Assembly: GCA_913055905.1 (NCBI GenBank)
Contig: CAJXLB010000002.1
Coordinates: 124,001 to 188,000 of the forward strand
DNA from: an uncultured Winogradskyella sp.
GTDB lineage: Bacteria; Bacteroidota; Bacteroidia; Flavobacteriales; Flavobacteriaceae
Reading direction: 5' to 3'
DNA: 64,000 bases
Part shown: positions 11,496 to 44,513 of the stretch, in pieces
Layout of the letters: every line of letters begins with the position of its first letter
Position numbering within the stretch: the stretch's first letter is position 1
Notes under the pieces: generated by a model
Database searches by the model: none
Told to the model about the DNA's origin: nothing
Seen by the model: only the letters and a program-made list of their open reading frames with translations
Program-made: the position numbers and the translations under genes

Positions 11496-12329
11496 ATGTT
11501 AGGTATAGGGGAATACTGTGAACTAAAAATTTTAAGAGATACCGAGCCAGGTTTGTTTTTGGGTGATGATGAGGGCAACGAAGTACTGCTTCCAAATCGT
11601 TACGTTCCCGATACTTTTGAAGTTGGAGAAAAGCTTGAGGTTTTTATCTATCTTGATAACGAAGAACGTTTAGTTGCAACCACTGATAAGCCTTTTGTCA
11701 CCAAGGGTGATTTTGCCTTATTGCGATGTAATCAGGTGAATAAATTTGGTGCTTTTTTGGATTGGGGATTGGTTAAGGAATTGTTTTGTCCGTTCAAGGA
11801 ACAGGCCTTCAAAATGAAAAAGGGAGGTTGGTATTTAATTTATTGTTACTTAGACGAGGAAACCAATAGGCTCGTTGCCTCGAGTAAAACCAACCGATTC
11901 TTGGATAATTCAGAATTGACAGTTTCTAGATTTGACGAAGTAGACCTAATCGTCTCTCACCCTTCAGAAATCGGCATGAATGTCATTGTGAATAAAAAGC
12001 ATTTAGGGTTGGTTTATAAAGATGATATTTTTAAGGATATTCAAGTAGGGGACAAATTAAAGGGCATAGTAAAAAAAATTAGGCGCGACAATAAATTAGA
12101 CATTTCCTTAAGCCAAATAGGATATAGAAATATAGAACCAAACGCTCAATTTATCTTAAATGAGCTCAAGAAAAAAAACGGATTTCTTCCCTTGCACGAT
12201 AAATCGAGCCCAGAGACGATAAAGGAACAGGTGCAAATGAGCAAGAAGAGCTTTAAAAAAGCCATTGGGTCACTCTATAAAGACCGTCAAATAGAAATCA
12301 AGGACGATGGGATTTATTTAAAACCCTAA
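11496..12329 (+). CDS. cvfB: S1-domain RNA-binding protein, CvfB family
   Basis: A 277-residue CvfB-type protein built of tandem S1/OB domains and a C-terminal winged helix. The first OB domain (about residues 1-65) contains GLFLGDDEGNEVLLPNRYVP; the second has VNKFGAFLDWGLVKELFCPF; a third near residues 150-215 has IGMNVIVNKKHLGLVYKDDI and KLDISLSQIG. The winged helix at the end (KKSFKKAIGSLYKDRQIEI) is the usual CvfB finish. CvfB proteins bind RNA; in Staphylococcus the gene affects virulence expression. The role here is unknown. Its last four bases overlap the end of the convergent gene that follows. Confidence 0.9.
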   Translation: MLGIGEYCELKILRDTEPGLFLGDDEGNEVLLPNRYVPDTFEVGEKLEVFIYLDNEERLVATTDKPFVTKGDFALLRCNQVNKFGAFLDWGLVKELFCPFKEQAFKMKKGGWYLIYCYLDEETNRLVASSKTNRFLDNSELTVSRFDEVDLIVSHPSEIGMNVIVNKKHLGLVYKDDIFKDIQVGDKLKGIVKKIRRDNKLDISLSQIGYRNIEPNAQFILNELKKKNGFLPLHDKSSPETIKEQVQMSKKSFKKAIGSLYKDRQIEIKDDGIYLKP

Positions 12330-29438: not shown

Positions 29439-30812
29439 ATGCAATGGCTCGATGACTTATTGGCAAATTTTTCGTCCTTAGCTTGGGGTTTACCACTTTT
29501 GATTATACTTATTGGTGGTGGTACATATTTATTAATTCGCTCTAGGTTTTTGCCTTTTAGGTATTTAGGGCACGCAATTGATGTTCTTAGAGGAAAATAT
29601 GACGATGCCAATGATTTAGGCGAGATTTCTCATTTCCAAGCGCTATCTACTGCTTTGTCTTCAACAATAGGTATGGGAAATATTGCAGGTGTTGCTGTCG
29701 CGATTGCCATTGGAGGTCCTGGCGCGGTATTTTGGATGTGGATAAGCGCTTTGATTGGCATGAATACCAAATTTTTCACGTCAACCTTAGCGGTGCTGTA
29801 TCGAGGAAGAGATAGTGCAGGTGACATTCAGGGAGGTCCTATGTATTTTATAATTGAAGGTTTAGGCCAAAAATGGAAGCCCTTAGCCGTTGCGTTTAGC
29901 GCATTCGGATTAATTGGTGCATTGCCTGTTTTTAATGTAAACCAATTAACCCAAGCGATTAATGATATTCTATTAATCCCTCATGGAGTTGAGGTAACCT
30001 TCTCTAGCAATCTTTTTATTGGAGCTATACTAGTTGTGATAACAGGCTTAGTAATCATAGGGGGAATAACCAGGATTGGAAAGGTTGCTTCTAAGTTAGT
30101 CCCTTTCATGGTGGTTCTTTATTTTGTGTTGGTTGCTATTATTTTAGGCTACCATTTTAACGAATTGTGGTATTACTTAAAACTAATTTTTACGGATGCT
30201 TTTTCGGCGAATTATTATCCTGAGGATGATAAGTTTATGGGAGGTGTCCTTGGTGCCTTGATATTGCACGGCATTAAGCGAGGTGCATTTTCAAATGAAG
30301 CAGGGATAGGAACAGCACCCTTGGCGCATGGTGCGGCCAAAACGAACAAACCTGTAAGGGAAGGTCTTGTTGCCATGCTCGGGCCTGCTATTGATACCTT
30401 ATTGGTCTGTACCTTAACCGCTCTGGCTATTTTGGTGACTGATGTATGGCAAACTACAGCCTACAATGGGGTAAGCCTAACGGCCTCTGCTTTTTCATCT
30501 GTGATGCCTAGTTTTGGTGTATATGGTCTCCTTCTTTGCATCGTAGTTTTTAGTATGAGCTCCTTGTTTTCATATTCATATTACGGTTCAAAGTGTATGG
30601 CGTTTTTATTCGGAGCTCACCGCAAGCCCTATTACATTTATGTTTATGTGTTTAGTATATTGATTGGTGCAACCACAACGCTGGATATGATGATAAATCT
30701 CATTGACGGTGTATTTGCCTTAATGGCCATTCCAACAATGACAGCGACCTTAATTTTGGCCCCAAAGGTCATCAATGAAGCCAAAACATATTTCAATTCT
30801 CTGAATGCGTGA
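29439..30812 (+). CDS. Sodium:alanine/glycine symporter (AGCS family)
   Basis: An inner-membrane Na+-coupled amino-acid carrier of 457 residues with about 11 hydrophobic segments. Family signatures: STALSSTIGMGNIAGVAVAIAIGGPGAVFWMW (a long stretch around residues 70-100, core GMGNIAGVA), GGPMYFIIEGLG, GVLGALILHGIKRGAFSNEAGIGTAPLAHG (core GAFSNEAGIGTAP), YYGSKCMAFLFG. These match AGCS transporters of alanine or glycine. The start at 29439 (MQWLDDLL) is preferred because the promoter box lies too close to the earlier ATG at 29418. It is a single gene, 93 bases before the HTH gene. Substrate by family only. Confidence 0.92.
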   Translation: MQWLDDLLANFSSLAWGLPLLIILIGGGTYLLIRSRFLPFRYLGHAIDVLRGKYDDANDLGEISHFQALSTALSSTIGMGNIAGVAVAIAIGGPGAVFWMWISALIGMNTKFFTSTLAVLYRGRDSAGDIQGGPMYFIIEGLGQKWKPLAVAFSAFGLIGALPVFNVNQLTQAINDILLIPHGVEVTFSSNLFIGAILVVITGLVIIGGITRIGKVASKLVPFMVVLYFVLVAIILGYHFNELWYYLKLIFTDAFSANYYPEDDKFMGGVLGALILHGIKRGAFSNEAGIGTAPLAHGAAKTNKPVREGLVAMLGPAIDTLLVCTLTALAILVTDVWQTTAYNGVSLTASAFSSVMPSFGVYGLLLCIVVFSMSSLFSYSYYGSKCMAFLFGAHRKPYYIYVYVFSILIGATTTLDMMINLIDGVFALMAIPTMTATLILAPKVINEAKTYFNSLNA

Positions 30813-30870
30813 TGTTTGTTTAGGCTTATTAGAGAATTGCTCCAACAAAACTTTTTAAAATATAATATAT

Positions 30871-30905
30871 TGCTAAATTGATATATTTATGCTAAATTAG
30901 TATAT
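30871..30905 (+). repeat. Tandem TGCTAA-N3-(GA/AG)TATA motifs before the InsA-like gene
   Basis: Two direct copies, TGCTAAATTGATATAT (30871-30886) and TGCTAAATTAGTATAT (30890-30905), 19 bases apart. The second ends at the start codon of the HTH gene (ATG 30906). A third, inverted copy lies just after the gene. They could be operators or element ends. Confidence 0.75.
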
Positions 30906-31325
30906 ATGAAAATAGACAGTTGTCCCAATTGTGGGTCGGACCATTATATAAAGAGCGGAGTAATCAAAGACAGGCAGCGCTATAAGTGCAAGCATTGCAA
31001 CTATTTCTTCACTGTAAATAAAATAGGGAAGAAAATAGATGACTACTACGTTAATAAGGCATTGCAACTGTATCTAGAGGGTTTGACCTATCGGGAAATT
31101 GAGCGGATTTTGGGCATTTCCCATGTAAGTATTATGAACTGGGTGCGCAAGTACAATATTAAACGTCCGTATAATTCCAAATACCATCCCACCTATAAAA
31201 TCTTAAGTTCAGAGGAATTGACAAAATTCTTTTCTGAAACCAACAATCTTTCTGGAGCTGGTGTTGTGGTGACTGAACTTGGCGATAAGTTTATGCTCAT
31301 TAAATGGGAGCGTTTTCGGGAATAA
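30906..31325 (+). CDS. IS1 InsA-like zinc-ribbon/HTH protein without a transposase domain
   Basis: A 139-residue protein resembling the InsA half of IS1-type transposases. It has an N-terminal zinc ribbon with Cys6, Cys9, Cys28 and Cys31 (CPNC...CKHC), then a helix-turn-helix (about residues 50-90: ALQLYLEGLTYREIERILGI, SHVSIMNWVRKYN). After it, residues 95-139 form a different C-terminal domain (SEELTKFFSETNNLSGAG, VVVTELGDKFMLIKWERFRE) in place of a DDE catalytic domain. No second transposase frame follows. It is probably a domesticated DNA-binding regulator of the neighbouring porin-symporter-kinase-acs genes, inferred from position and from repeated motifs on both sides. A decayed mobile element is the alternative. 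Confidence 0.78.
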   Translation: MKIDSCPNCGSDHYIKSGVIKDRQRYKCKHCNYFFTVNKIGKKIDDYYVNKALQLYLEGLTYREIERILGISHVSIMNWVRKYNIKRPYNSKYHPTYKILSSEELTKFFSETNNLSGAGVVVTELGDKFMLIKWERFRE

Positions 31326-31328
31326 AAC

Positions 31329-31343
31329 TATACTGTATTAGCA
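31329..31343 (-). repeat. Inverted copy of the TGCTAA-N3-AGTATA motif before the porin gene
   Basis: TATACTGTATTAGCA reads TGCTAATACAGTATA on the minus strand. It is identical to the 30890 copy at both 6-base ends and differs only in the three central bases. It lies four bases after the HTH gene and about 93 bases before the porin ATG. Confidence 0.7.
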
Positions 31344-31393
31344 AAAAAATATATTAACTTTTTTTTAGGGAATAGTTTTTCAGAGTTTAGTGG

Positions 31394-31410
31394 TGCACAC
31401 AAAACCAATG
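31394..31410 (+). promoter_or_regulatory. 17-base motif shared with the acs operon (copy 1)
   Basis: TGCACACAAAACCAATG, 26 bases before the porin ATG. The exact reverse complement occurs at 38169-38185, before the acs operon. Confidence 0.65.
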
Positions 31411-31435
31411 TACAACTAACTAAATTCTAAACTCT

Positions 31436-32647
31436 ATGAAAAAAACAGCCTTTATACTGATGGGATTATTATTGTCCTGTCAGTTATTTTTTGCCCAAGG
31501 TATAGATGAATATACTGGTGGGTACAAGGTAAAATTTAACGAGGATGGTTCAAAATATCTTCGAATTATTGCTTGGGGCCAGTTCTGGGCCCAATACAAT
31601 GACGACGCTCCAGATCGTGATAGTAAATTAGACCTTAGCGTAAGGCGTGCCAGGGTTTTAACCTACACTCAGCTCAATAAGAAATTTTTAATCCTTACAC
31701 ATTTTGGTTTAAACAATTTAAACGGTGATAATACATCTCCATTGGGCTATGGAGAAAACTCCCAACTTTTCTTCCATGATTTTTGGGGAGAATGGGCTTT
31801 AACGGATAATCATTCAGCTGGTTTTGGACTTCACTATTGGAACGGTATTTCAAGAGCCAATAACCAAAGTACGCTAAACATGATGACCCTTGATAACAAC
31901 AGGCAGTCATGGGCAACGTTAGGATTGTCTGATCAATTTGCAAGGCATCTTGGGATCTATTTAAAGGGAAAAATTGGCAGACTGCAATACCGTGTAGCCT
32001 ACAATGAAGCTAACGCCAGTACGCTGGACAACAGAGATCCTTTAACTGATGCCACAACCGTTTATGGCGGGAGAGCAATTTTAGGCTCTGGAGAGGCTGG
32101 TAAAGTCTTTCAAGGTTATTTTGATTACAATTTTTTAGATGAAGAATCAAACTTTCTGCCTTACAAGGTTGGAACATACCTTGGCAGTAAAAAGGTATTT
32201 AATATCGGAGCCGGTTTCTTTAATCATGCTAATGGTGTTGTAGAAGCCAATGGCGAGGGAGCAGATGTAACCATATTTGCCGTTGATGCTTTTTATGATG
32301 CACCTCTGAGTGGTAACAATGATGCCATAACCGCTTATGCTGTTTACCAAAACAATGATTATGGAGAAAACTTTTTATTAGGACCATATTCATCAGGGAG
32401 TATGTTTTATACTCACGTAGGATATCTTATTCCAGGTGATAAAACCAAAGCACGCTTTCAGCCTTATGTGTCCTATAACAACAGTCAAGTTGATGCCATA
32501 GATGATAGTTCCACACGATTAGGCATCGGCGGAAATATATTTTTAACCGGTCATCATTCAAAAATCAGTATAGAGTATGCCAATACCAAATTTGGCAACG
32601 CAGATGCTACCGGTCTATTAACGGTACAAGCAATGATATTCCTATAA
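31436..32647 (+). CDS. Outer-membrane porin (OprP/OprO-like beta barrel)
   Basis: A 403-residue outer-membrane beta-barrel protein with a signal peptide (MKKTAFILMGLLLSCQLFFAQ). It has barrel strands throughout, such as LRIIAWGQFWAQYND, LSVRRARVLTYTQLN and FFHDFWGEWALTDNH, and ends VQAMIFL with an aromatic near the C terminus. The RRARV element after the first strand is typical of the phosphate-selective-porin-like family. Position directly before an acetate-type symporter suggests it admits small carboxylates, an inference from the operon. It carries two candidate regulatory motifs upstream and is followed 13 bases later by the DUF4212 gene. Confidence 0.86.
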   Translation: MKKTAFILMGLLLSCQLFFAQGIDEYTGGYKVKFNEDGSKYLRIIAWGQFWAQYNDDAPDRDSKLDLSVRRARVLTYTQLNKKFLILTHFGLNNLNGDNTSPLGYGENSQLFFHDFWGEWALTDNHSAGFGLHYWNGISRANNQSTLNMMTLDNNRQSWATLGLSDQFARHLGIYLKGKIGRLQYRVAYNEANASTLDNRDPLTDATTVYGGRAILGSGEAGKVFQGYFDYNFLDEESNFLPYKVGTYLGSKKVFNIGAGFFNHANGVVEANGEGADVTIFAVDAFYDAPLSGNNDAITAYAVYQNNDYGENFLLGPYSSGSMFYTHVGYLIPGDKTKARFQPYVSYNNSQVDAIDDSSTRLGIGGNIFLTGHHSKISIEYANTKFGNADATGLLTVQAMIFL

Positions 32648-32660: not shown

Positions 32661-32921
32661 ATGTCAGAAAAACAAAAACATGCAACAGCATATTGGAAGG
32701 AAAATGTCAAGTATCTTTCCATTCTTTTGGCCATTTGGTTCCTTGTGTCCTATGGCTGTGGAATCCTCTTTAAGGATGCCTTAAATGAGTTTAGATTAGG
32801 CGGCTTCAAGCTAGGCTTTTGGTTCGCGCAACAAGGATCTATTTACGTATTCGTGATTTTAATTTTCGTTTACGTACGGATTATGAATAAACTAGATAAA
32901 AAATACGGTTTTGACGAATAG
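32661..32921 (+). CDS. DUF4212 small membrane subunit of a sodium:solute symporter
   Basis: An 86-residue protein with two membrane spans (LSILLAIWFLVSYGCGILF and FWFAQQGSIYVFVILIFVYV) and a charged tail ending NKLDKKYGFDE. It matches DUF4212, the small protein almost always encoded just before ActP/VC_2705-type acetate symporters, and it is presumed to form a complex with the larger protein. The symporter follows after 26 bases. Confidence 0.93.
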   Translation: MSEKQKHATAYWKENVKYLSILLAIWFLVSYGCGILFKDALNEFRLGGFKLGFWFAQQGSIYVFVILIFVYVRIMNKLDKKYGFDE

Positions 32922-32947: not shown

Positions 32948-34714
32948 ATGAGTGTACAAGTATGGACATGGTTATTAGTAGGTGTGACATTCGCACTTTA
33001 CTTCGGAATAGCAATTTGGGCTAGAGCAGGCTCAACAAAAGACTTTTATGTTGCTGGTGGTGGTGTTTCGCCATTGGCAAACGGTATGGCAACAGCAGCG
33101 GATTGGATGAGTGCTGCCTCGTTTATATCAATGGCTGGTATTATTTCCTTTACTGGTTATGATGGTTCGGTTTATCTCATGGGCTGGACAGGTGGTTATG
33201 TACTATTGGCTTTATTGTTAGCACCTTATCTCAGAAAATTTGGAAAATTTACGGTCCCTGATTTTATTGGAGACAGGTATTATTCCAATGTCGCAAGAAC
33301 AGTAGCGGTAATCTGTGCGCTGATTGTATCTTTTACTTATGTCGCAGGGCAGATGCGCGGTGTTGGTGTGGTATTTTCACAATTCTTGCAGGTCGATATC
33401 ACTTTAGGAGTAGTGATTGGTATGGCAGTTGTTCTGGTTTTTGCCTTTTTAGGTGGAATGAAAGGCATTACATACACCCAGGTAGCACAATACTGTGTTT
33501 TGATTTTCGCATTTATGGTGCCAGCATTTTTCATCTCCATTCAAATGACAGGTAATATAATTCCTCAAATTGGTATGGGAGGTACGGTCGAAGATGGTAC
33601 TTTTTTACTTGACAAACTGGATGCACTGCATACCGAATTGGGCTTTAAGGAATACACCGATGGCACAAAATCTACTTGGGATGTTTTCGCAATTACACTA
33701 GCCCTTATGGTTGGTACTGCTGGGCTTCCTCATGTTATCGTTCGTTTCTTTACCGTGCCTAAAGTTAAGGATGCCAGAAAATCAGCAGGTTATGCCTTAT
33801 TGCTTATTGCTATATTATATACTACGGCTCCAGCAATTGCAGTTTTTGCAAGAACAAATCTTATTGAAACAGTTAGGGACACTGAATATGCAGAAGTACC
33901 TGCATGGTTTAAAAACTGGGAAGATACAGGCCTAATCGCCTGGTCTGATAAAAATGGTGACGGTAAGATTCAGTATGTTGCCGGAGGAGCCATAGAAGGG
34001 AAGAAACCTGTTTATAGTGATGCCAGAGGTGAATACGGTCAGCGTTTAATAACCAATGCCAATGCCAATGCCAACGAATTATATGTAGATAGGGATATCA
34101 TGGTATTGGCCAATCCAGAAATTGCAAAATTGCCAAATTGGGTGATTGCACTTGTGGCTGCCGGTGGTCTAGCCGCAGCACTATCTACTGCAGCAGGACT
34201 TTTACTGGTTATTTCAACGTCAATTTCACATGATTTAATCAAAAAACAAATCAAACCAGATATTTCCGATAAAGGGGAGTTGATGTGGGCAAGAATAGCC
34301 ATAGTTGGTGCAGTTCTTATCGCCGGTTACTTTGGTATTAATCCACCAGGATTTGTCGCAGCTGTGGTGGCACTCGCTTTCGGTCTCGCAGCAGCTTCAT
34401 TTTTCCCTGCAATCATTTTAGGAATCTTTGATAAACGGATGAACAAAGAAGGTGCTATTGCTGGTATGGTAGTCGGTATTACCTTGATGTTATTTTACAT
34501 GATGAAATTTAAATTGGATTTCTTTGGAGGAGGTACTCAAGAGGATTGGTGGTTTGGTACTTCACCAGAAGGTTTTGGTACAATTGCAATGCTGGTTAAT
34601 GTGGTTATTTCTGTTGTTGTGTCTAGAGCTACTGCCGCACCACCACAGCATGTGCAAGAAATAGTGGAAAACATTAGAATTCCATCTGGAGCAGGAGAAG
34701 CACAGTCTCATTAA
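32948..34714 (+). CDS. Sodium:solute symporter, ActP/VC_2705-like (probable acetate/short-chain carboxylate uptake)
   Basis: A 588-residue Na+/solute symporter (SSS) of the acetate-permease-like group with about 13 membrane segments: GMATAADWMSAASFISMAG, FGKFTVPDFIGDRYYSN, GMKGITYTQVAQYCVLIFA (SSS signature region) and LAAALSTAAGLLLVISTSISHD. An extra soluble loop (about residues 315-375) contains an EF-hand-like stretch, Asp334-KNGDGKIQ, without the acidic twelfth residue. It works with DUF4212. Acetate or propionate as substrate is inferred from the family and from acs, prpE and aceBA nearby. A terminator follows at 34785. Confidence 0.92.
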   Translation: MSVQVWTWLLVGVTFALYFGIAIWARAGSTKDFYVAGGGVSPLANGMATAADWMSAASFISMAGIISFTGYDGSVYLMGWTGGYVLLALLLAPYLRKFGKFTVPDFIGDRYYSNVARTVAVICALIVSFTYVAGQMRGVGVVFSQFLQVDITLGVVIGMAVVLVFAFLGGMKGITYTQVAQYCVLIFAFMVPAFFISIQMTGNIIPQIGMGGTVEDGTFLLDKLDALHTELGFKEYTDGTKSTWDVFAITLALMVGTAGLPHVIVRFFTVPKVKDARKSAGYALLLIAILYTTAPAIAVFARTNLIETVRDTEYAEVPAWFKNWEDTGLIAWSDKNGDGKIQYVAGGAIEGKKPVYSDARGEYGQRLITNANANANELYVDRDIMVLANPEIAKLPNWVIALVAAGGLAAALSTAAGLLLVISTSISHDLIKKQIKPDISDKGELMWARIAIVGAVLIAGYFGINPPGFVAAVVALAFGLAAASFFPAIILGIFDKRMNKEGAIAGMVVGITLMLFYMMKFKLDFFGGGTQEDWWFGTSPEGFGTIAMLVNVVISVVVSRATAAPPQHVQEIVENIRIPSGAGEAQSH

Positions 34715-34888: not shown

Positions 34889-35083
34889 TTGAAAAAAAGA
34901 CACGAACAGAAATTAGTGGTTTTAAGCCTGGGGCTTTTCCTTATTTTAAACATGCCATTCATTCTTATTTTTGATTTTGAAGGTATGGTGTTAGGTATCC
35001 CGACTCTTTATTTTGCCATATTCTGCATTTGGGCCCTATCTATAATTATTTCATACATAGTATTAAGGCGGCATTATGAGTAA
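34889..35083 (+). CDS. Small two-span membrane protein coupled to the symporter-kinase
   Basis: A 64-residue protein starting at a TTG (MKKRHEQKLV...), with two membrane helices (LVVLSLGLFLILNMPFILIF and LYFAIFCIWALSIIISYIVL) and a basic end. No family recognised. Its last eight bases overlap the start of the histidine kinase gene, so the two are translationally coupled. By analogy with DUF4212 it may be a small subunit for the kinase's own symporter domain, which is an inference. A decayed promoter-like TATCTTTA lies at 34855. Confidence 0.75.
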   Translation: MKKRHEQKLVVLSLGLFLILNMPFILIFDFEGMVLGIPTLYFAIFCIWALSIIISYIVLRRHYE

Positions 35084-37766
35084 TTACTTATTGTTTTCCA
35101 TAATTGTCCTGTATTTGGCAAGCCTTTTTGTCATAGCTTTTTTAGCCGAAAAAAACGCTAAAAGTAAGTGGGTAAATAATTCCGTGGTCTACACGCTGTC
35201 CCTTGGTGTCTATTGTACGGCATGGACCTATTATGGAAGCATTGGTATAGCAGCCAATTCAGGTGTTAATTTCTTGCCTATTTATTTGGGGCCGGTTATT
35301 GCGGCTCCCTTATGGATTGTACTTCTCAGAAAAATTATAAGAATTTCCAAACAGCATAAAATAAGTTCTATAGCTGATTTTTTAAGTTTAAGATATGGCA
35401 ATAACAGGTTTTTAGGAGCGCTAGTAACGGTTGTTTGCTTATTAGGTATTGTACCTTATATATCGCTTCAGCTTAAGGCTGTTTCTGAAACCTTTCAACT
35501 ATTATCGGACGATTCCAGTTATGTATCAACCACCGTTTATGACGATTCTACATTTTACATAGCAGTCTTGTTAGCTGTTTTTGCTACTTTTTTCGGAACC
35601 CAAACCACAGATGCCTCAGAAAAACACAAAGGGATTGTAATGACAGTGGCTATTGAGTCCGTTCTTAAATTGGTGTTTTTTATTTGTGTAGGTGCTTATG
35701 TGACCTATGTTCTTTTTGATGGTACAGGAGATATCTATAAAAAAATGGCAGAAGCGCCTAACTTTAGTGCCTTAACAAGTGTCAATGGTTTTGAAAATGG
35801 CTTTATATGGTTATACACTATTTTATTGTCGTTTTTTGCCATTTTTCTTTTACCACGACAATTTCAGGTTTCTGTGGTTGAAAATGTTAGGAGTAAGCAT
35901 TTAAAGAATGCTATTTGGATGTTTCCGTTATACCTTTTGCTTTTCAATGTTTTTGTCATATTCGTGGCTTGGGCCGGAAACTTAAACATTGGCATTCCTG
36001 ATCAGGCAGAATATTACGCACTCTTGTTGCCTTTGCAAAATGGGAATACATTCCTTGCTTCCCTTGTGTTTCTTGGCGGCTTGTCGGCTGTTATATCTAT
36101 GGTAGTGGTTTCTACCTTGGCATTATCCGTGATGGTGAGTAATAATCTGGTTATTCCTTATGGGTTCTTAGACAGGTTTATTCAAAATCACCCAGAGCGT
36201 AATGCCAAGTATATTAAGAATATCAGGCGAATCTCCATATTTTCAATCATTATAATTGCTTATGCTTTTTATGTCAACTTTTCCTATGAATTGTCGTTGT
36301 ATTCCATTGGTCTAATTGCATTTGTCATCATAGCACAATTGGCACCGTCATTTTTTGTTGGACTATTTTGGAATCGAGGATCTTCTAAAGGAGCCATTAT
36401 TGGTATAATAGCTGGTTTTGCCATTACTTTTTACACCTTGATTCTGCCTTTTTCAATCCAAGCGTTTACAGGATCTAACGAATTTGTAGAGAATGGGTTT
36501 TTGGGAATTGAGTCTCTAAAGCCGCATGCACTTTTAGGTATCGATTTTTTAAGCCCACCGACTCATGCGTTTTTTTGGAGTATGTTGGCCAATGGCTTTT
36601 GTTACCTTTTGTTTTCTTTGCTGTACAAAGGGAATTACAGGGAACGCAATTATGCAGAGATGTTTGTAGACAGCCGTAATTATTCCGATTTGCAGGATGG
36701 GGCTTTAGTCTGGAAAGGTGAAGCTTATGTGGCTGAAATTAAAAAAGTGCTCAACAAATTTTTAGGTGAGGAGAGGACTGAGCGCGCATTAAGCTTGTTC
36801 TTCAGAAAATATAATCTTGCCCCAGATACTCAGATGGCCGATGCTAGATTAATCAATTTTTCTGAAAAGTTGCTTACAGGGAGTATTGGAAGTGCCTCTG
36901 CTAAGATTTTAATAGCAAGTGTCGTCAAGGAAGAGGAAGTAAGCCTAATCGAAGTGCTTAAAATTCTCGAAGAATCTAAAGAAACCATATCGCGAAACAA
37001 GCTACTGCGCGAAAAATCAGAGGAGTTGACCCAATTGACCTCTAAGCTTAAGGAGGCTAATGTGGAGTTGGTTGAAAAAGACAAACAAAAGGATGAATTC
37101 CTGGATACTGTAGCCCATGAGTTGAAAACACCTATAACAGGAATAAGAGCGGCCACAGAACTTTTGATGAGTGAATCTGATGAAATGCCTTCTGATCTGA
37201 GAAGCCAATTCTTAAAAAACATGATGCAGGATAGCGATCGGCTTTCCCGTCTTATTCATAATATCTTGGATTTTGAAAAGTTGTCCAAGGGAAGAGCGGA
37301 TCTAAACATTGCGAAATTTAATATTAGAGATACGATTTTAAAAGCAATTCAGAATCTAGAGCCGATTGCGGCCAAAAAACAAGTTAGTATTATCAACTCC
37401 AATAACAGTGATCTATTTGCAGAATATGATGAGGACCGCATACTTCAAGTACTTACCAATTTAGTTTCCAATGCTATTAAGTTTTGCAGGTCTGAAGAAG
37501 GGGAAATAGTTTTGGACTACAAATTTGAAAAAGGGTTTCTTCAGGTTACCGTGAAGGACAATGGAAGCGGAATTCCAAAACAAGATATACCTCATATTTT
37601 CGATAAGTTTTACCAATCTAAAAATCAAAATATAATAAAACCAGAGGGTAGTGGTTTGGGCTTAGCAATCTCAAAAACCATCATTGAAAATCACAAGGGG
37701 GAGATTTGGGTAAAAAACAACAAGAAAAGTGGTGTAACCTTTGGTTTTCAACTACCTTTTAAGTAA
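35076..37766 (+). CDS. Symporter-domain sensor histidine kinase (CrbS/CbrA-like)
   Basis: An 896-residue membrane kinase. Residues 1-560 are a complete SSS-type transporter domain of about 13 spans (SLGVYCTAWTYYGSIGIAAN, ISSIADFLSLRYGNN, SGVVV-type core SAVISMVVVSTLALSVMVSN). Residues about 575-650 look like the STAC linker domain. Then come a short coiled coil, a HisKA dimerisation domain with the phospho-accepting His681 (DTVAHELKTPITG) and an HATPase domain (NLVSNAIKF, DNGSGIP, GSGLGLAISKTI). In gamma-proteobacteria CrbS-CrbR kinases of this architecture control acs and acetate use; the location beside actP-like and acs genes fits the same role. The upstream small gene overlaps it; the receiver gene follows after 20 bases. 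Confidence 0.94.
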   Translation: MSNYLLFSIIVLYLASLFVIAFLAEKNAKSKWVNNSVVYTLSLGVYCTAWTYYGSIGIAANSGVNFLPIYLGPVIAAPLWIVLLRKIIRISKQHKISSIADFLSLRYGNNRFLGALVTVVCLLGIVPYISLQLKAVSETFQLLSDDSSYVSTTVYDDSTFYIAVLLAVFATFFGTQTTDASEKHKGIVMTVAIESVLKLVFFICVGAYVTYVLFDGTGDIYKKMAEAPNFSALTSVNGFENGFIWLYTILLSFFAIFLLPRQFQVSVVENVRSKHLKNAIWMFPLYLLLFNVFVIFVAWAGNLNIGIPDQAEYYALLLPLQNGNTFLASLVFLGGLSAVISMVVVSTLALSVMVSNNLVIPYGFLDRFIQNHPERNAKYIKNIRRISIFSIIIIAYAFYVNFSYELSLYSIGLIAFVIIAQLAPSFFVGLFWNRGSSKGAIIGIIAGFAITFYTLILPFSIQAFTGSNEFVENGFLGIESLKPHALLGIDFLSPPTHAFFWSMLANGFCYLLFSLLYKGNYRERNYAEMFVDSRNYSDLQDGALVWKGEAYVAEIKKVLNKFLGEERTERALSLFFRKYNLAPDTQMADARLINFSEKLLTGSIGSASAKILIASVVKEEEVSLIEVLKILEESKETISRNKLLREKSEELTQLTSKLKEANVELVEKDKQKDEFLDTVAHELKTPITGIRAATELLMSESDEMPSDLRSQFLKNMMQDSDRLSRLIHNILDFEKLSKGRADLNIAKFNIRDTILKAIQNLEPIAAKKQVSIINSNNSDLFAEYDEDRILQVLTNLVSNAIKFCRSEEGEIVLDYKFEKGFLQVTVKDNGSGIPKQDIPHIFDKFYQSKNQNIIKPEGSGLGLAISKTIIENHKGEIWVKNNKKSGVTFGFQLPFK

Positions 37767-37786: not shown

Positions 37787-38152
37787 ATGAAAAAGATTGT
37801 CATCGTTGACGATGAACCAAACATAGTGATGACATTGGAATATACCTTTAAAAAACAAAATTTTGAAGTGTATATCGCAAGGGATGGAAGTGAGGCTTTA
37901 GAGATTTTAAAGACCGTAATTCCAAATGTTATCTTGTTAGATGTTATGATGCCTAAAGTAGATGGTTATCAAACACTTAAGATAGTTAAAGAAAACAATA
38001 AGTTAAAAGACACTAAAGTGGTGTTTTTAACGGCAAAAAATAAAGCTTCAGATATTGAAAAAGGCTTAAAACTTGGAGCAGATAAATATTTAACAAAGCC
38101 ATTTTCAGTAAAAAAAATAGTTTCAGAAATTAATGAATTAATCTCTTCTTGA
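37787..38152 (+). CDS. Receiver-only response regulator
   Basis: A 121-residue CheY-like protein: acidic pair IVDDEPN, phospho-acceptor Asp52 (LLDVMMPKVDGY), VVFLTAKN and Lys104 (KYLTKPF). It has no DNA-binding or enzymatic output domain, unlike CrbR, which ends in a LuxR-type HTH. It follows the symporter-kinase by 20 bases and must be its partner. Its output is unknown: it may pass phosphate on, act by protein contact, or work with the InsA-like HTH protein of this region. Confidence 0.95.
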   Translation: MKKIVIVDDEPNIVMTLEYTFKKQNFEVYIARDGSEALEILKTVIPNVILLDVMMPKVDGYQTLKIVKENNKLKDTKVVFLTAKNKASDIEKGLKLGADKYLTKPFSVKKIVSEINELISS

Positions 38153-38216: not shown

Positions 38217-38444
38217 ATGAAACGACTTCGATTAAATGGTACAACTTCTGATATTCTTATCAGTGCATATGTTGTTGTGACCTTATATTTCCGTTTTAAA
38301 TTTGAGAATGCCTCCGCCACAGGTGTACTGGAATCCATTGTTATGGGTCTGTGCTTTGTGGTCATTTTATGGGTGCTGATTAAACTTAAATTTTTAAACC
38401 CCAATTGGTTTGGTTTGTTTAATTCCAAAACTTCAGAGCTATGA
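38217..38444 (+). CDS. Small membrane protein at the head of the acs operon
   Basis: A 75-residue protein with two hydrophobic segments (SDILISAYVVVTLYFRF and SIVMGLCFVVILWVLIKL), basic ends and no family that I recognise. The stop overlaps the prpE-like start by four bases (ATGA), so it is translated in concert with the acyl-CoA synthetases. The candidate 17-base operator is directly upstream. Function unknown. Confidence 0.75.
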   Translation: MKRLRLNGTTSDILISAYVVVTLYFRFKFENASATGVLESIVMGLCFVVILWVLIKLKFLNPNWFGLFNSKTSEL

Positions 38445-40354
38445 GTTATAATAAAATGTACGCTCAAAGTATTGATGCTAAAGAGGAATTCTGGAGAGAG
38501 CAAGCCAACGCATTAAGTTGGTATAAAAAACCAAAAACGATTTTAGGAAACGATGAGTATGGTTATCCGCAATGGTTTCAAGATGGAAAGCTTAACGTCA
38601 GTTATTTGTGTATAGATAAGCACATAGAGGACGGTTACGGAGATCAAAATGCCATAATATACGATTCGCCAGTGACCAATACCAAAACGTTTATTACATT
38701 TAATAAGCTGCATGAAGAAGTTTCAAAATTGGCAGGTGGTCTTCAAGCTCTCGGATTGTCTAAAGGTGATACGGTTATAATTTATATGCCAATGATTCCT
38801 CAGGCGCTCTATGCGATGTTAGCCTGCGCTCGGCTTGGTGTAATTCATTCTGTTGTCTTTGGTGGTTTTGCGCCACACGAACTGGCCATAAGAATTGATG
38901 ACTGCAAACCCAAGGCCATTATCACAGCGTCTAACGGAATTGAAATTGAGAAAATTATTCCTTATAAACCTTTTGTAGATGAGGCCATTAGTACAGCCCA
39001 AAGCAAACCAGAGCATGTTATTGTTTTTGATAGGCAATTAGGTGTTCCCATACCGCACAAACCTTATGACGTAGATTATACCGATTTAGTATCAAAATCG
39101 GTTAGTATTGAACCCGTTCCTGTGGAATCTAATCATCCACTGTATATTTTATATACCTCAGGAACTACAGGAAAACCAAAGGGTATTATTAGGGATACTG
39201 GTGGTTATGCCACAGCTTTAAAATTCTCTATGAAACACGTTTACGGCGTAGAATCCGGAGAGGTGTATTGGGCTGCTAGTGATGTGGGTTGGGTCGTGGG
39301 CCATAGTTACATAGTCTATGGGCCTTTGCTCAATAGAAATACAACTATTATTTTTGAAGGCAAGCCCATTAAAACGCCAGATGCCTCGACTTTTTGGCGT
39401 GTCATCAGTGAGCACAAAGTTGCCGTTATGTTTACCGCACCCACTGCAATCCGTGCCATAAAAAAAGAAGACCCTTCAGGTTCCTTTATTGAAAAATACG
39501 ATTTATCCACTCTGAAATATCAGTTTTTAGCTGGTGAACGTTGTGATGTAGCCACTTTGAATTGGGCCGAACAACATTTAAAGGTCCCGGTCATTGACCA
39601 TTGGTGGCAAACAGAAAGCGGTTGGCCTATGGTGGCAAATATGGTTGGTGTTGAACTGTTACCTGTAAAGCCTGGCTCCGCATCTTTTCCTGTCTGTGGG
39701 TACGATATTCAAATTTTAAACGAAAATGGAGTGCAAGTTCCTGCCGATGTAGAGGGTTTTGTAGCCGTTAAACTGCCGCTGCCTCCAGGATGTCTTTTAA
39801 ATTTATGGGGAAATCCTGAGCGTTTTAAAGCTGGCTATTTGAGTCGTTTTCCAGGTTACTATTTCTCAGGAGATGGTGGTTATGTAGACGAGGATGGCTA
39901 TGTGTTTATAACAGGTCGAGTAGATGATATCATCAATGTCGCTGGGCATCGTTTATCTACGGCAGAAATGGAAGAAATTGTTTCGAGCCACAATGATGTT
40001 GCAGAATGTGCTGTTTTTGGTGTACACTGCGACTTAAAAGGTCAAAAGCCACTGGCTCTTGTTGTTTTAAAATCCGAAACAAGTTCAGGTCACGATGCCA
40101 TCACTAAAGAAATAATTGCCGAAGTGCGGCACGAAATTGGAGCAGTAGCGTCACTTAAAGATGTTTTGGTAGTTCAACGATTACCGAAAACGCGATCTGG
40201 CAAAATTTTACGTAAATTACTTCGTCATATTTCGGATGATTTAGAATATAATGTCCCTTCAACTATTGACGATATAACTATTATTTCAGAAATAGAACAA
40301 GTATATAAGCAAAATCAAATAGGTATCCATAAAAACATAATCAATCATGAGTAA
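38441..40354 (+). CDS. prpE: Propionyl-CoA/acyl-CoA synthetase (PrpE/ACSS3-like)
   Basis: A 637-residue AMP-forming acyl-CoA synthetase. It has the P-loop ILYTSGTTGKPKGIIRDTGG, WAASDVGWVVGHSYIVYGP, DHWWQTESGWPM (A5), FSGDGGYVDEDGYVFITGR (hinge) and the catalytic C-terminal Lys588 in TRSGKILRKLLR. The N terminus (MSYNKMYAQSIDAKEEFW) and SYLCIDKHIEDGYGDQNAI match PrpE/ACSS3-type propionyl-CoA synthetases more than Acs. It makes propionyl-CoA, possibly also acetyl-CoA. Its last eight bases overlap the acs start, so the two synthetases are translated together. The exact acyl preference is inferred. Confidence 0.87.
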   Translation: MSYNKMYAQSIDAKEEFWREQANALSWYKKPKTILGNDEYGYPQWFQDGKLNVSYLCIDKHIEDGYGDQNAIIYDSPVTNTKTFITFNKLHEEVSKLAGGLQALGLSKGDTVIIYMPMIPQALYAMLACARLGVIHSVVFGGFAPHELAIRIDDCKPKAIITASNGIEIEKIIPYKPFVDEAISTAQSKPEHVIVFDRQLGVPIPHKPYDVDYTDLVSKSVSIEPVPVESNHPLYILYTSGTTGKPKGIIRDTGGYATALKFSMKHVYGVESGEVYWAASDVGWVVGHSYIVYGPLLNRNTTIIFEGKPIKTPDASTFWRVISEHKVAVMFTAPTAIRAIKKEDPSGSFIEKYDLSTLKYQFLAGERCDVATLNWAEQHLKVPVIDHWWQTESGWPMVANMVGVELLPVKPGSASFPVCGYDIQILNENGVQVPADVEGFVAVKLPLPPGCLLNLWGNPERFKAGYLSRFPGYYFSGDGGYVDEDGYVFITGRVDDIINVAGHRLSTAEMEEIVSSHNDVAECAVFGVHCDLKGQKPLALVVLKSETSSGHDAITKEIIAEVRHEIGAVASLKDVLVVQRLPKTRSGKILRKLLRHISDDLEYNVPSTIDDITIISEIEQVYKQNQIGIHKNIINHE

Positions 40355-42254
40355 TTATCATATCAAGCATTTTGAAGAATATTTTCAAGTGTATCGTAAA
40401 TCTGTTAATAACCCAGAGTCTTTCTGGGAAGAAATAGCCGAAGAACATTTCGTTTGGCGCAAGAAATGGAATAACGTATTGCGTTGGGATTTTCAGAAAC
40501 CAGAAATTAAATGGTTTGAAGGTGCTCAACTCAACATAACGGAAAATTGCCTCGACAGGCATTTGCATACAAGGGGTGACAAAACGGCTATTTTATTTGA
40601 GCCTAACGATCCTAACGAACCTGCGGAGCACATTACCTATAAACAGCTCTATGATAGAGTGTGTAAATTTGCTAATGTTCTTCACGATAAGGGAATTTCA
40701 AAAGGCGATCGTGTTTGTATTTATCTTCCAATGATTCCAGAATTGGCAGTAGCTGTATTGGCTTGTGCACGAATTGGAGCCATTCATTCCGTCGTATTTG
40801 CAGGTTTTTCATCTACCGCCTTATCCACACGTATTAATGACTGTGATGCTAAAATGGTTATCTGTGCAGATGGATCTTACAGAGGGTCCAAAACGATTGA
40901 TTTAAAAGGTATAGTAGATGAGGCTTTAAAGGATTGTCCTGGTGTGGAATCCGTTTTGGTTGCTAAGCGCATTAACTCGGATATTGCAATGAAGGAAGGG
41001 CGTGACGAGTGGCTCCAGCCACTTTTAGATGAGGCTTACCGAGAGTATTCAGCGGTAATTATGGATGCCGAAGACCCACTTTTTATTTTGTATACTTCAG
41101 GTTCCACTGGAATGCCGAAGGGCATGCTTCATACCATCGGAGGTTATATGGTTTATACAGCTTATACCTTTAAGAATGTGTTTCAGTATAAAGAAGAGGA
41201 CGTTTATTGGTGTACTGCGGATATAGGTTGGATTACAGGTCACAGTTACATCGTCTATGGTCCGTTATGCAATGGCGCCACAACCGTTATGTTTGAAGGT
41301 GTTCCTAGTTATCCTGATTTCGGTCGTTTCTGGGAAATTGTAGACAAGCACAAGGTTAACCAGTTTTACACGGCGCCAACAGCAATAAGGGCTTTGGCTA
41401 AGCACGGAACTGAATTAATCGAGAAATACGACTTGTCTTCACTGAAAGTACTTGGCTCCGTCGGTGAACCCATAAACGAAGAGGCTTGGCATTGGTATAA
41501 CGATAATGTGGGAAAAAAGAAAAGTCCGATTGTAGATACCTGGTGGCAAACAGAAACAGGTGGTATTATGATAACGCCAATCCCATTTTCTACGCCCACC
41601 AAACCAACCTATGCAACCTTGCCATTCATTGGGATTCAACCAGCCTTAATGGATGAAAATGGACAAGAGATTAAGGGAAATCAAGTCGATGGACGTCTTT
41701 GTATTAAATTTCCTTGGCCGTCAATGGCGCGTACAATCTGGGGCAATCATCAGCGCTATAAGGATACTTATTTCTCGGCCTTCGAAAACATGTACTTCAC
41801 AGGAGATGGCGCTTTGCGTGATGAGGTAGGGTATTACCGAATTACCGGGCGAGTAGATGATGTTATTATAGTTTCTGGCCATAACTTAGGTACTGCACCA
41901 ATTGAAGATGCCATTAACGAGCATAATGCCGTTGCAGAGTCTGCCATTGTTGGTTTTCCTCATGATGTTAAAGGTAATGCGCTCTATGGATTTATCACCC
42001 TTAAAGACGTTGGGGAAACGAGACAGCACGACAATGTGAGAAAGGAAATTAATCAGCTCATTACAGATCGAATTGGTCCTATAGCTAAATTGGATAAAAT
42101 ACAGTTTACTTCAGGATTGCCTAAAACACGTTCTGGTAAAATTATGAGACGAATATTAAGGAAAATAGCGTCCCACGAAACTGAAAATTTAGGTGACACA
42201 AGTACTTTGCTCAACCCTGAGGTGGTCCAAGAAATCATGGACAACGTCAAATAG
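40347..42254 (+). CDS. acs: Acetyl-CoA synthetase
   Basis: AMP-forming acetate-CoA ligase of 635 residues: N-terminal YRKSVNNPESFWEEIAEEHFVWRKKW, P-loop FILYTSGSTGMPKGMLHTIGG, WCTADIGWITGHSYIVYGPL, the acetate-pocket region TWWQTETGGIMITP and hinge FTGDGALRDEVGYYRITGR. The C-terminal Lys598 in KTRSGKIMRRILRKIA is the classic acetylation target. It supplies acetyl-CoA for the glyoxylate shunt genes 2 kb downstream. Last gene of the operon; a terminator follows. Confidence 0.96.
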   Translation: MSNYHIKHFEEYFQVYRKSVNNPESFWEEIAEEHFVWRKKWNNVLRWDFQKPEIKWFEGAQLNITENCLDRHLHTRGDKTAILFEPNDPNEPAEHITYKQLYDRVCKFANVLHDKGISKGDRVCIYLPMIPELAVAVLACARIGAIHSVVFAGFSSTALSTRINDCDAKMVICADGSYRGSKTIDLKGIVDEALKDCPGVESVLVAKRINSDIAMKEGRDEWLQPLLDEAYREYSAVIMDAEDPLFILYTSGSTGMPKGMLHTIGGYMVYTAYTFKNVFQYKEEDVYWCTADIGWITGHSYIVYGPLCNGATTVMFEGVPSYPDFGRFWEIVDKHKVNQFYTAPTAIRALAKHGTELIEKYDLSSLKVLGSVGEPINEEAWHWYNDNVGKKKSPIVDTWWQTETGGIMITPIPFSTPTKPTYATLPFIGIQPALMDENGQEIKGNQVDGRLCIKFPWPSMARTIWGNHQRYKDTYFSAFENMYFTGDGALRDEVGYYRITGRVDDVIIVSGHNLGTAPIEDAINEHNAVAESAIVGFPHDVKGNALYGFITLKDVGETRQHDNVRKEINQLITDRIGPIAKLDKIQFTSGLPKTRSGKIMRRILRKIASHETENLGDTSTLLNPEVVQEIMDNVK

Positions 42255-42377: not shown

Positions 42378-43034
42378 ATGTTAAAAGCTGTTTTATTTGA
42401 TATGGATGGTGTTATTGTGGATACCGAACCTCTGCATTACAAGGCGTATCATCGCATGTTCAATGATGTTGGTATAAATGTAAGCGAAGAGCTATATGAT
42501 TCTTTTACAGGCCAATCAACACTAAATATTTGCAGGCGACTGGTTAATCACTTTGAGTTGCGCAATCCTGCGGAGGAATTGATTCGTCTTAAGCGTCAAC
42601 ATTTTAAATATTTGTTTGATAATGATCAAGACCTTACACTCATCGATGGCGTTTTGGACATCATAAAAGAGTATTACAGTAACGGTATTACCTTGGTAGT
42701 GGCTTCCTCAGCTTCTATGCCCAATATCAATCGTATTTTCAATAGGTTTGATCTAAACCAATATTTCAGTGGAAAATTTAGTGGAGCCGATTTGAAACAG
42801 TCCAAGCCACATCCCGAAATTTTCTTAAAAGCGGCTGCCCATACAGGTTTTAACAAGTGTCAGTGTATGGTTATCGAAGATTCAACAAATGGGATTGCTG
42901 CCGCAAAGGCTGCCGGTATTTTTTGTGTTGGGTACAAAAGTTTGCATTCGCACGGCCAGGATTATTCAAAAGCGGATGTGGTTATTTCGGATTTTAATGA
43001 GATAGCTTATCCTAAGGTCAAAGTGTTATTTTGA
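42378..43034 (+). CDS. HAD-family phosphatase (beta-phosphoglucomutase-like)
   Basis: A 218-residue HAD hydrolase: FDMDGVIVDTEPLHYKAY holds nucleophile Asp8 and Asp10, SSASMPNINRIF is motif II, SKPHPEIFLKAA contains the motif III Lys, and VIEDSTNGIAAAKAAG gives the acidic motif IV. The helical cap is type C1, as in beta-phosphoglucomutase, GPH and 2-deoxyglucose-6-phosphate phosphatases. Substrate unknown. Its last nine bases overlap the 3' end of the convergent regulator gene. TATCTTCG at 42356 is one base off a -7 box. Confidence 0.9.
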   Translation: MLKAVLFDMDGVIVDTEPLHYKAYHRMFNDVGINVSEELYDSFTGQSTLNICRRLVNHFELRNPAEELIRLKRQHFKYLFDNDQDLTLIDGVLDIIKEYYSNGITLVVASSASMPNINRIFNRFDLNQYFSGKFSGADLKQSKPHPEIFLKAAAHTGFNKCQCMVIEDSTNGIAAAKAAGIFCVGYKSLHSHGQDYSKADVVISDFNEIAYPKVKVLF

Positions 43035-44513
43035 TAGATTGCTGTATTTTTTCTGAATCTCATCTACCACCTTAGCGGTGTCCATTTCTTTCTTTCGTTT
43101 TTCTAAAATCACAGGGTCAGCCTGCCTTACACTGCAATTTATAATGGAGCAGCGTTCACAAGTTACACCAACATCTACCGTTTTAAGGCTTTTGTGATTT
43201 AAAAAATTGGCTTTTCGTTTAAGCTGAGCGTTTAACTCAATCCCTATGGATATACTTCTGTATTGATTGGCTTTAAATGGGTCTGCTGTTGCCGAAGCTA
43301 AAACCAAATATTGACGTTCTTCAACCGGATAATTGGATATTTGTATGTCAAATTCATGGTCCGCTCCAGACTGGCCAATGGCTTTAAGGGTTTTTAAAGA
43401 CACCCAGCGCTGGCAGTAATGTTCATTGGTTTCCCTCGCTCTGGGCGATTGCTTTTTTGTGAGATGGAGCTCTTTGTTCAACACAAATTTTTCAGAGCCC
43501 TTCTTGTGTGCAAATCTGAGAAAGAACAAATTTTTAAGACCAAAATCCTTTGGAAGGATATTTGTCAAGCGTTGGTAAACAGACTCTGGAGACGCATTGT
43601 AATGATTGAGTAACGACTGAAACTCCTTGGCATTAAAGCGTTTTTTGGCGAACAACTTTTTTAATTGTTCTACCAAACTTTGACGCGGAATGATTAGGGC
43701 TCCAGAAAAATAGGAAGCGTAAAAATTGTTGAGCACTTCATCAAAATTATCAAAAGCAATCCAAGAGAATGTGTATAAACGGTCTTTTATGTTGAGGTAG
43801 TTATAGGCGAGCTCCTTGCCATAAATGAAAGCACGTTGGGCATCATCTATATCTTTTGTTATTAGTAAGGTTTTAGACTTTGGTATAAAAATGGAGCGCA
43901 GTTTGTCTAGTTCGCTGTGTGTCTCCAATTCGTCATAATTAATGGTGTAGCCAAACTCTTCGACCAAAATTTCCTCTAATTCCTGTGCACTTATTTTTTT
44001 GGTTAAATCAATCTGATAGGTCTTGGCAAACTTAAGGACAGCTTCTTCTAGGTGGTCAAAATAGTTGTTATTGGCCTCTTGGAAGGAGCGTACCGAAGCA
44101 AGGTAGAAATTCTCTTTGCTGAAACTGTAATTCTTGGCAATTTCTATAATGGTGCTAATGAACGCTGTAATTTTTTGAGGGGCGTTGGAGATGATGTCTA
44201 TCAAGGTATTTTCTTGAAGGCCCAATAATTCCAAAGGGATTTCCTTTAGGAGTTTAGACTGAAGAATTTCGCCAACAGGTGCCAGATTTTTGTCCAATTT
44301 TAGAGAGACCAAATCGTCATAAGGCACATCTAGGTGCTCTGATAAAGCAGCAATTTTATCTGGTTTGGGATATTTTTTTCCTTTTTCTATTTCATTGAGA
44401 TAGGATTTTGAAAGGCCAGACAATTTAGAAAGCCCAAACAAAGACAAACCTCGCTCTGTGCGGATTTGCTTGAGTTTTAATCCAAAAATCAACTTAATAT
44501 AATCCTGTTCCAT
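43026..44513 (-). CDS. XRE-family regulator with degenerate IrrE domain (RamB/ScfR-like)
   Basis: A 495-residue regulator of the short-chain fatty acyl (ScfR) or RamB type. The Cro/cI helix-turn-helix is at residues about 10-65 (LKQIRTERGLSLFGLSKLSG). Residues about 150-290 form the ImmA/IrrE peptidase-like domain, but its expected HEXXH is KELAY (233-237), so no zinc protease activity is likely. The C-terminal domain (about 300-470) ends with a cysteine cluster, Cys452, Cys455 and Cys460 (TCERCSIINC). Relatives sense acyl-CoA or related metabolites and control aceA/aceB; this gene is divergent from aceB across 119 bases containing strong repeats. It should regulate the glyoxylate shunt and itself. 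Confidence 0.9.
   Translation of the reverse strand: MEQDYIKLIFGLKLKQIRTERGLSLFGLSKLSGLSKSYLNEIEKGKKYPKPDKIAALSEHLDVPYDDLVSLKLDKNLAPVGEILQSKLLKEIPLELLGLQENTLIDIISNAPQKITAFISTIIEIAKNYSFSKENFYLASVRSFQEANNNYFDHLEEAVLKFAKTYQIDLTKKISAQELEEILVEEFGYTINYDELETHSELDKLRSIFIPKSKTLLITKDIDDAQRAFIYGKELAYNYLNIKDRLYTFSWIAFDNFDEVLNNFYASYFSGALIIPRQSLVEQLKKLFAKKRFNAKEFQSLLNHYNASPESVYQRLTNILPKDFGLKNLFFLRFAHKKGSEKFVLNKELHLTKKQSPRARETNEHYCQRWVSLKTLKAIGQSGADHEFDIQISNYPVEERQYLVLASATADPFKANQYRSISIGIELNAQLKRKANFLNHKSLKTVDVGVTCERCSIINCSVRQADPVILEKRKKEMDTAKVVDEIQKKYSNLSK

Follow-up and report, generated by a model that had tools for sequence, protein, structure and literature searches.

An InsA-like candidate autorepressor, apparently derived from IS1, at a porin and acetate operon of Bacteroidota

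Why should a gene resembling the DNA-binding half of an IS1 transposase lie, framed by copies of one motif, directly in front of a transport operon and acetate genes? In the window analyzed here (the whole stretch of 64,000 nucleotides), two readings had been offered by the original prediction, namely, a protein that binds the motif as a regulator, which was favored, and a miniature element with the motif copies as its terminal repeats. We propose that the gene probably encodes an InsA-like autorepressor that was derived from IS1 and recruited to control the porin-acetate operon. The observations that carry this reading are homology, single copy, synteny, motif conservation, fixed spacing, co-occurrence with a kinase, and purifying selection (two pairs). 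The genes concerned are the following:

30906 to 31325, plus strand: domesticated IS1-type regulator, 139 aa, ATG start (Pfam, NCBIfam, hhalign, AlphaFold model, orthologue tree)
31436 to 32647, plus strand: outer-membrane porin (ExtI-like), first gene of the transport operon (NF040900 at 2.6e-16, below cut-off; no Pfam match)
32661 to 32921, plus strand: small symporter subunit (DUF4212, TIGR03647; Pfam, NCBIfam)
32948 to 34714, plus strand: sodium/solute symporter (TIGR03648; NCBIfam)
34889 to 35083, plus strand: membrane-like protein of 64 aa, conserved in 77 of 80 loci and encoded between symporter and kinase (no NCBIfam match; in Pfam only PAP2 at 0.011)
35076 to 37766, plus strand: SLC5-type transporter fused to a histidine kinase (PF00474, HisKA, HATPase_c)
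37787 to 38152, plus strand: receiver-only response regulator, 121 aa (PF00072 at residues 4-115; no output domain found)
38441 to 42254, plus strand: two acetyl-CoA-synthetase-like genes, 38441-40354 and 40347-42254 (PF16177, PF00501, PF13193)

The regulator is laid out as a zinc ribbon (residues about 6-36), HTH helices (46-82), and a C-terminal strand-helix-strand-strand unit (93-136). The InsA-type zinc ribbon and HTH that had been predicted are borne out by NF050000, the NCBIfam model of the IS1/IS1595 zinc domain, which is above cut-off at residues 6-36, and by Pfam HTH_28 and HTH_23, also above cut-off (HTH at residues 51-85), with Zn_ribbon_IS1595 barely and Zn_ribbon_InsA far below it; hhalign against seven IS1 transposases covers residues 1-115 (prob 98.5, E 2e-15). 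The NCBIfam IS1 transposase model, NF033558, matches at 5.4e-21, below cut-off, and aligns residues 6-124 of 139 with model positions 1-122 of 199; as the match stops there, most of the catalytic part must be missing from the regulator, in agreement with the predicted loss of the catalytic half. An archaeal IS1-family transposase aligns with residues 5-136 at 38% identity (tblastn), and thus the C-terminal part of the regulator is collinear with the start of the catalytic domain. The catalytic “DE” of IS1 coincides with residues 103-104 in the alignment to the IS1 profile as well as in that to the archaeal IS1; of 40 orthologues, 3 have Asp and 11 have Glu at position 103, whose neighbor, E104, does not vary. 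A complete DDE catalytic domain is absent, the later catalytic regions being missing. Because the IS1 model reaches the regulator genes, if below its cut-off, some of them may be annotated as transposases.

The AlphaFold model (mean pLDDT 80.5, pTM 0.48) shows a zinc ribbon, three helices, and the strand-helix-strand-strand unit, and its top Foldseek matches are Lrp/AsnC proteins (E 0.034, prob 0.82). These matches raise the alternative that the protein senses acetate, acetyl-CoA, or acyl-CoA through its C-terminal domain, as an Lrp-like one-component regulator independent of the kinase, and a distant locus (L155) with the regulator beside a permease and Acs and no kinase nearby would suit such a role. 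We consider it unlikely: the Lrp-type TM-scores are only about 0.22-0.27, the match of the regulator profile to five Lrp proteins is confined to HTH residues 59-83, and the collinear IS1 match accounts for the C-terminal domain as the retained beginning of a catalytic domain that was cut short. Taken alone, the C-terminal domain gives no significant profile match to either IS1 (0.11) or Lrp (0.3), and the RAM ligand-binding domain (PF01037) is not among the Pfam matches of the regulator up to E 0.1. With the profile match limited to the HTH and the fold match weak, an Lrp/RAM domain in the regulator is unsupported.

When 37 DNA-binding regions were placed in a tree, all 20 orthologues sampled grouped apart from the 17 IS1 rows (100/97). 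IS1 rows from Tenacibaculum, Methylobacter, Hymenobacter, and Methylobacterium share the regulator side of a 94/80 fork in no clear order, some of them on long branches; one locus (L293), whose excerpt had a stop ahead of the start, is not in the tree. As far as sampled, the IS1 DNA-binding half was probably domesticated once in Bacteroidota. The regulator is under purifying selection in the only two measurable pairs of 66 possible among 12 relatives (dN/dS 0.03 and 0.06). Its C-terminus is likewise conserved across orthologues (dN/dS 0.07-0.08 in two pairs), and the eight scored pairs of the window with a relative gave no usable synonymous distance, a ninth (L090) being left out. Many dispersed copies, which had been named as the mark of a mobile element, are not what we find: the gene is single in its own genome, where two other matches lie at E above 0.1, and among 395 genomes of the order, 115 match the Tenacibaculum IS1 DNA-binding region at 1e-12, 113 of them at one place and two (G417 and G687) at two places each. 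Two of the 115 (G083 and G556) are weak matches near 4e-13 that may be IS1 genes. In G417, the domesticated gene stands at 17745 and 3401328 of contig C1, near opposite ends of a single contig of ~3.4 Mb. A search of phages gave no regulator homologue at 1e-5.

Synteny with the porin, DUF4212, and symporter genes, which had been proposed as a check, was found in all of the best 80 of 538 loci encoding a regulator relative: the three genes follow the regulator on the same strand in 80/80, the porin at below 50% identity in 11. The SLC5 histidine kinase lies downstream in 77 of the 80; two of the exceptions (L033 and L082) end inside the symporter gene, and the third (L041) runs ~1.9 kb past it without a match. 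The agcS gene lies at most 400 nt upstream of the regulator in 18 of the 80. Zobellia barbeyronii is among the bacteria that carry the locus (L098). Among 15 more distant regions, regulator, porin, kinase, and receiver occur together in 11. As for the others, L149 has kinase and receiver with no porin match; the L156 stretch ends after the symporter; L159 runs regulator-receiver-acs-acs, and its genome (G052) lacks a kinase at the cut-off; and L155 has the regulator, an MFS permease, and Acs, with no kinase or receiver match in the fetched stretch. DUF4212 and the symporter are unmatched in 7 of the 15 that have porin or kinase matches (L148, L149, L150, L151, L153, L154, and L162). At L148, the one of these seven that was looked into, an MFS-type permease (10193-11773) takes the place of the symporter, and regulator, porin, kinase, and receiver are still together. 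Two regions of stop-bearing distant matches (L157 and L164), outside the 15, show none of the neighbors.

The noncoding features that bear on control of these genes are the following:

30871 to 30904, plus strand: candidate left operator, direct boxes TGCTAAATTGATATA (30871-30885) and TGCTAAATTAGTATA (30890-30904), 19 bp apart (sequence, conservation)
30870 to 30900, plus strand: putative sigma-A promoter in the left operator, TTG at 30870-30872, 20 nt, and TAAATTAG at 30893-30900 (sequence; inference)
31329 to 31363, minus strand: candidate right operator, inverted box TGCTAATACAGTATA (31329-31343) and a degenerate second half to about 31363 (conservation, spacing)
31364 to 31435, plus strand: presumed porin promoter and leader, with GCACACAAAACCAAT at 31395 (31395-31409; consensus of 62 loci with the anchor)

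Two direct copies of TGCTAA-N3-AGTATA had been described before the gene and one inverted copy after it; those at 30890 and 31329 (minus strand) fit exactly and that at 30871 fits with 2 mismatches, and the agreement claimed, 12 of 15 bases with mismatches only in the center, is true of 30890 versus 31329. The pattern alone is weak, with 14 matches at 2 or fewer mismatches in 64 kb versus 9.2 expected and, at 1 or fewer in the whole genome, 17 matches versus 18 for a reversed control; the sole two exact copies in the genome are those at 30890 and 31329 (minus strand). Its conservation among relatives is much the stronger argument. In the window, the left operator ends 1 nt before the regulator ATG. 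The corresponding 34-bp two-box element is at least 29/34 identical in 79 of the 80 related loci, the remaining one (L072) beginning inside the element. In 69 of the 80, a single base separates it from the ATG; across these 69, mean column identity is 0.94 in the element versus 0.51 in the 75 nt upstream, and 23 of the 34 columns are invariant in 30 loci. Across relatives, the consensus of the box is TGCTAAwTTnnTATA, i.e., TGCTAA-wTT-nn-TATA; hence, the motif as first written stands as a conserved one, with the corrections that part of its “N3” is conserved and its “AG” is not. At least one upstream box is present in 14 of the 15 distant loci, and two boxes exactly 19 bp apart are present in 12, including L150 at 60% GC; L155 (63% GC) has one box above threshold and a degenerate second at ~20 bp, L154 has one weaker box, and in L156, the locus without a box, only ~50 nt precede the matched start. 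Loss of the motif from relatives that keep the gene, which had been set as evidence against a regulator, is thus not seen in either set.

The left boxes overlap the predicted promoter of the regulator itself, whose TTG we take to be the -33 element used for flavobacterial promoter assignment. The F. psychrophilum -7 box, TAnnTTTG, is placed at -12 to -5 in the passages of the source that describe it (PMC9723704), and by the same placement, transcription would start at about 30905 and yield a nearly leaderless regulator mRNA. A scan for E. coli-type promoters returned no more matches than chance, RNA-style pairing of the boxes found no support, and an Rfam search of 30600-31700 gave no known RNA element. 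Given this overlap, a regulator sitting on the two head-to-tail boxes would most likely repress its own predicted promoter, as InsA does in IS1.

Downstream of the regulator stop, the inverted box scores above 99% of shuffles at 69 of 80 loci when the minus strand is read and at 0 of 80 when the plus strand is. A 35-bp right-operator matrix was built from those 69 loci and applied to the whole regulator-porin gap in each of the 80. In 73, the top-scoring site is no more than 5 nt from the regulator stop; in the other 7, all of them outside the training set, it is 67-103 nt away. Of the 62 loci that have the GCACAC-type anchor in the porin leader, 59, among them all 7 with a displaced site, show 31 nt between right operator and anchor, two show 30, and one shows 33; the anchor is absent in 18 of the 80 loci, and one locus (L075) is without a good right element. 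This constant distance, displaced sites included, implies that the right operator goes with the porin promoter. In the window, the porin ATG lies 93 bases past the inverted copy (31436-31343), as had been stated. In view of the fixed distance to the porin leader, we propose that in Flavobacteriaceae the regulator would also set expression of the porin, DUF4212, and symporter genes. Some evidence counts against the autorepressor reading: a clear inverted right box is found in only 2 of the 15 distant loci (L158 and L161), and the second right box is degenerate. L148 has a weak right box 216 nt after the regulator stop, and L154 has two direct boxes 19 bp apart after the regulator. We infer that the protein would bind these operators; any one sign of the porin effect, and acetate as the signal, would stand on the same footing.

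The closest full-length IS1 elements that we found are near-identical copies on two Tenacibaculum finnmarkense plasmids (L292 and L295), whose transposase is 51-52% identical to the regulator over residues 6-84. Their ends are GGCATTGCTAATTTAATATAG (left) and GGCATTGCTAATTCAATAAAG (right), and the left end includes TGCTAATTTAATATA, which is identical to the operator box in, e.g., L056. The operator scores are 21.2 bits for the left end and 6.2 for the right; in a Markov null for the box score in 35 nt, the score was reached in 2 of 60000 trials. Of 17 IS1 loci, 8 (L292, L295, L293, L294, L329, L331, L332, and L333) yielded a repeat pair scoring higher than the shuffled maximum, and the remaining 9 did not. 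Methylobacter IS1 ends, GGCATTGTTAATTTAGT and GGCATTGTTAATTAAGT, resemble the TGTTAATTTAATATA form of the right operator, and two cyanobacterial IS1 elements have GGCRTTG-type ends that are otherwise different. All three window boxes lack the GGCA tip and retain the inner repeat sequence; by this match, they would correspond to the subterminal, or inner, part of one IS1 terminal inverted repeat without its tip. We favor their descent from such a repeat, with the match coming from one IS lineage and chiefly from its left end. Since no IS1 end apart from that of Tenacibaculum scores above 7.8 bits in the 17 loci, site and repeat may instead have converged.

Could the boxes be the terminal repeats of a miniature or decayed element, mobile or recently fixed? 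They match the inner IS1 end and flank the gene as inverted copies, and so the terminal-repeat claim keeps its part on ancestry, the box matching the subterminal part of one end of the nearest full-length IS1 found. Its part on mobility falls: the gene is single copy with the same neighbors in 80/80 loci, the catalytic half and the GGCA tip are lost, and the right box keeps a constant distance to the porin and not to the regulator gene. Dispersed repeat pairs are absent, the exact pattern occurring only twice in the genome, with one strong match to the operator model R1. A still-mobile element is rejected on these grounds, and we regard the insertion reading as a whole as exceedingly improbable.

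R1 at E of 0.002 or less matches 19 of 21 orthologue genomes and 0 of 39 relatives without the gene, which, along with the single copy and the kept motif, upholds the preference for a regulator over a miniature element. Weak R1 matches of up to 0.01 occur in two of the 39 (G014 and G059), and the orthologue genomes missed are G040 and G053, of which G040 (L162) nonetheless has readable boxes. The same counts bear on the idea that the left boxes are simply a strong, conserved promoter and that the regulator acts elsewhere. TTG-N20-TAAATTAG does fit a flavobacterial promoter, judged by the -7 box as described in parts of PMC9723704; against this, the invariant columns, the 19-bp spacing kept in distant loci, the resemblance to an IS1 end, the inverted box by the porin, and the want of R1 matches in genomes without the gene make a promoter-only role very unlikely. 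With R1, no regulon beyond the locus was found in the own genome (150 of 4562 candidates scored), in a search that did not list the window's own right operator and can miss weak sites. Two candidates were set aside, the second-best R1 site in the own genome (18 bits), within a DNA polymerase III alpha-like ORF, and a box at 47410, inside the isocitrate lyase gene. G022, which has the gene, shows a second, partial R1 match off the locus (C239:794-815, 22.7 bits, E 2.5e-4).

Returning to the autorepressor reading, we propose that the regulator would be part of an acetate module with the SLC5 histidine kinase, the receiver-only response regulator, and the acetyl-CoA synthetases. In 60 relatives, own genome included, the regulator is present in 21 and the kinase in 20, with both in 20, the regulator only in 1, the kinase only in 0, and neither in 39. 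The symporter family occurs in 30, of which 18 have the regulator and 12 do not, and three regulator genomes lack it. Fisher p values, uncorrected for phylogeny, are 5e-15 for regulator-kinase and 9e-5 for regulator-symporter; the regulator tracks the kinase, not the symporter. In a phylum sample of 296 genomes, 22 of the own class have the regulator (1e-50 or better) and 21 the kinase, the genome of L155 (G223) having the regulator and no kinase at the cut-off. Another 11 genomes, all from outside the class, have the kinase but not the regulator, and one 4-kb contig (G346), also from outside it, has the regulator; three further regulator matches (G207, G237, and G249) are weak or broken.

This co-occurrence invites another possibility, that the regulator is the DNA-binding output of the two-component system, with the phosphorylated receiver docking on its C-terminal domain and thereby switching repression or activation. 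The receiver found without an output domain, the tracking of the kinase in the 60 relatives, the conserved C-terminus with its low dN/dS in two pairs, the persistence of regulator, porin, kinase, and receiver at L148 despite the permease in place of the symporter, and the regulator-receiver-acs-acs order at L159 are all consistent with it. It sits poorly with the kinase genomes outside the class, all 11 of which are without the regulator, and with L155 and its genome, where the regulator occurs without a kinase match. A receiver-only ORF is present in 8 of 9 fetched kinase regions outside the class, where the regulator was not found; hence, an output-less receiver does not by itself call for the regulator, and the IS1-derived protein fails as a universal explanation of such receivers. 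We therefore hold the split-output reading to be a doubtful, if real, possibility. More tentative by a shade is the notion that SLC5 kinase, receiver, and an IS1-derived protein acting on exapted IS1 repeats make up one acetate signaling chain, with the protein and its sites from one IS.

The nearest parallel is E. coli IS1, in which, according to the passages of the source that treat it, InsA uses its zinc finger and HTH to bind both inverted repeats, and the promoter that it represses overlaps IRL (PMC12428005). Like InsA, the regulator has a zinc ribbon and HTH and inverted repeats on its two flanks, with a promoter that is predicted to overlap the left one. InsA, unlike the regulator, comes from an element that is mobile and that produces InsAB' as well, through a frameshift, whereas the regulator is without the catalytic half or GGCA tips, stands at one fixed locus, and has its right repeat at a host operon. 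The module also resembles CrbS/CrbR of Vibrio and Pseudomonas, where an SLC5-type histidine kinase is linked to Acs and an acetate-type symporter and where CrbR, in the passages describing it, is a LuxR-type activator needing an inverted repeat (PMC5715377); the window's response regulator, in contrast, is receiver-only at 121 aa. Also unlike CrbS/CrbR, the candidate DNA-binding partner at the window is IS1-derived. The transcription factor TldR originates from transposon TnpB. It is likewise a mobile-element protein serving as a transcription factor, as described in part of PMC13418256, but TldR is RNA-guided, whereas the window regulator is apparently guided by retained transposon-end DNA. 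The Xre-type Ner/SfsB and RamB, the latter in acetate metabolism, are further cases of DNA-binding proteins from mobile elements being put to use in carbon metabolism (parts of PMC8987985); these, unlike the window regulator, carry phage or antitoxin Xre domains. The term “IS1” is absent from that review, and its passages describe no DNA-binding domain of a transposase that was retained along with the repeats. Among the matches listed by a literature search, no title concerned an IS1-derived regulator with retained ends. Thus, mobile-element proteins turned regulators are already known, and the retained DNA ends are the unusual part.

Taking these findings together, we postulate that the InsA-like DNA-binding half of an IS1 transposase became a chromosomal transcription factor, its operators being the inner part of the transposon's terminal inverted repeat with the GGCA tip lost. 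Both recognition halves of the transposon, protein and DNA ends, would then have been retained while catalysis and tips were lost, and the pair would apparently have been wired into carbon uptake in a large bacterial group, the Bacteroidota, for whose control of acetate uptake it offers a specific candidate.

Two further observations concern the surroundings of these genes. In six same-genus regions without the regulator (L249-L252, L254, and L255), agcS, DUF4212, and the symporter adjoin, with no porin, kinase, or receiver match in the fetched stretch, and a seventh same-genus genome without it (G047) has a distant porin at agcS-DUF4212-symporter; the arrangement looks as if regulator-porin and kinase-receiver blocks had been inserted or lost as units. 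The window also encodes a large Xre-type HTH regulator (43026-44513, minus strand) beside malate synthase and isocitrate lyase, which resembles the RamB/ScfR short-chain fatty acid regulators. At one locus (L289), a homologue of this Xre-type regulator adjoins aceB, aceA, and the SLC5 kinase.
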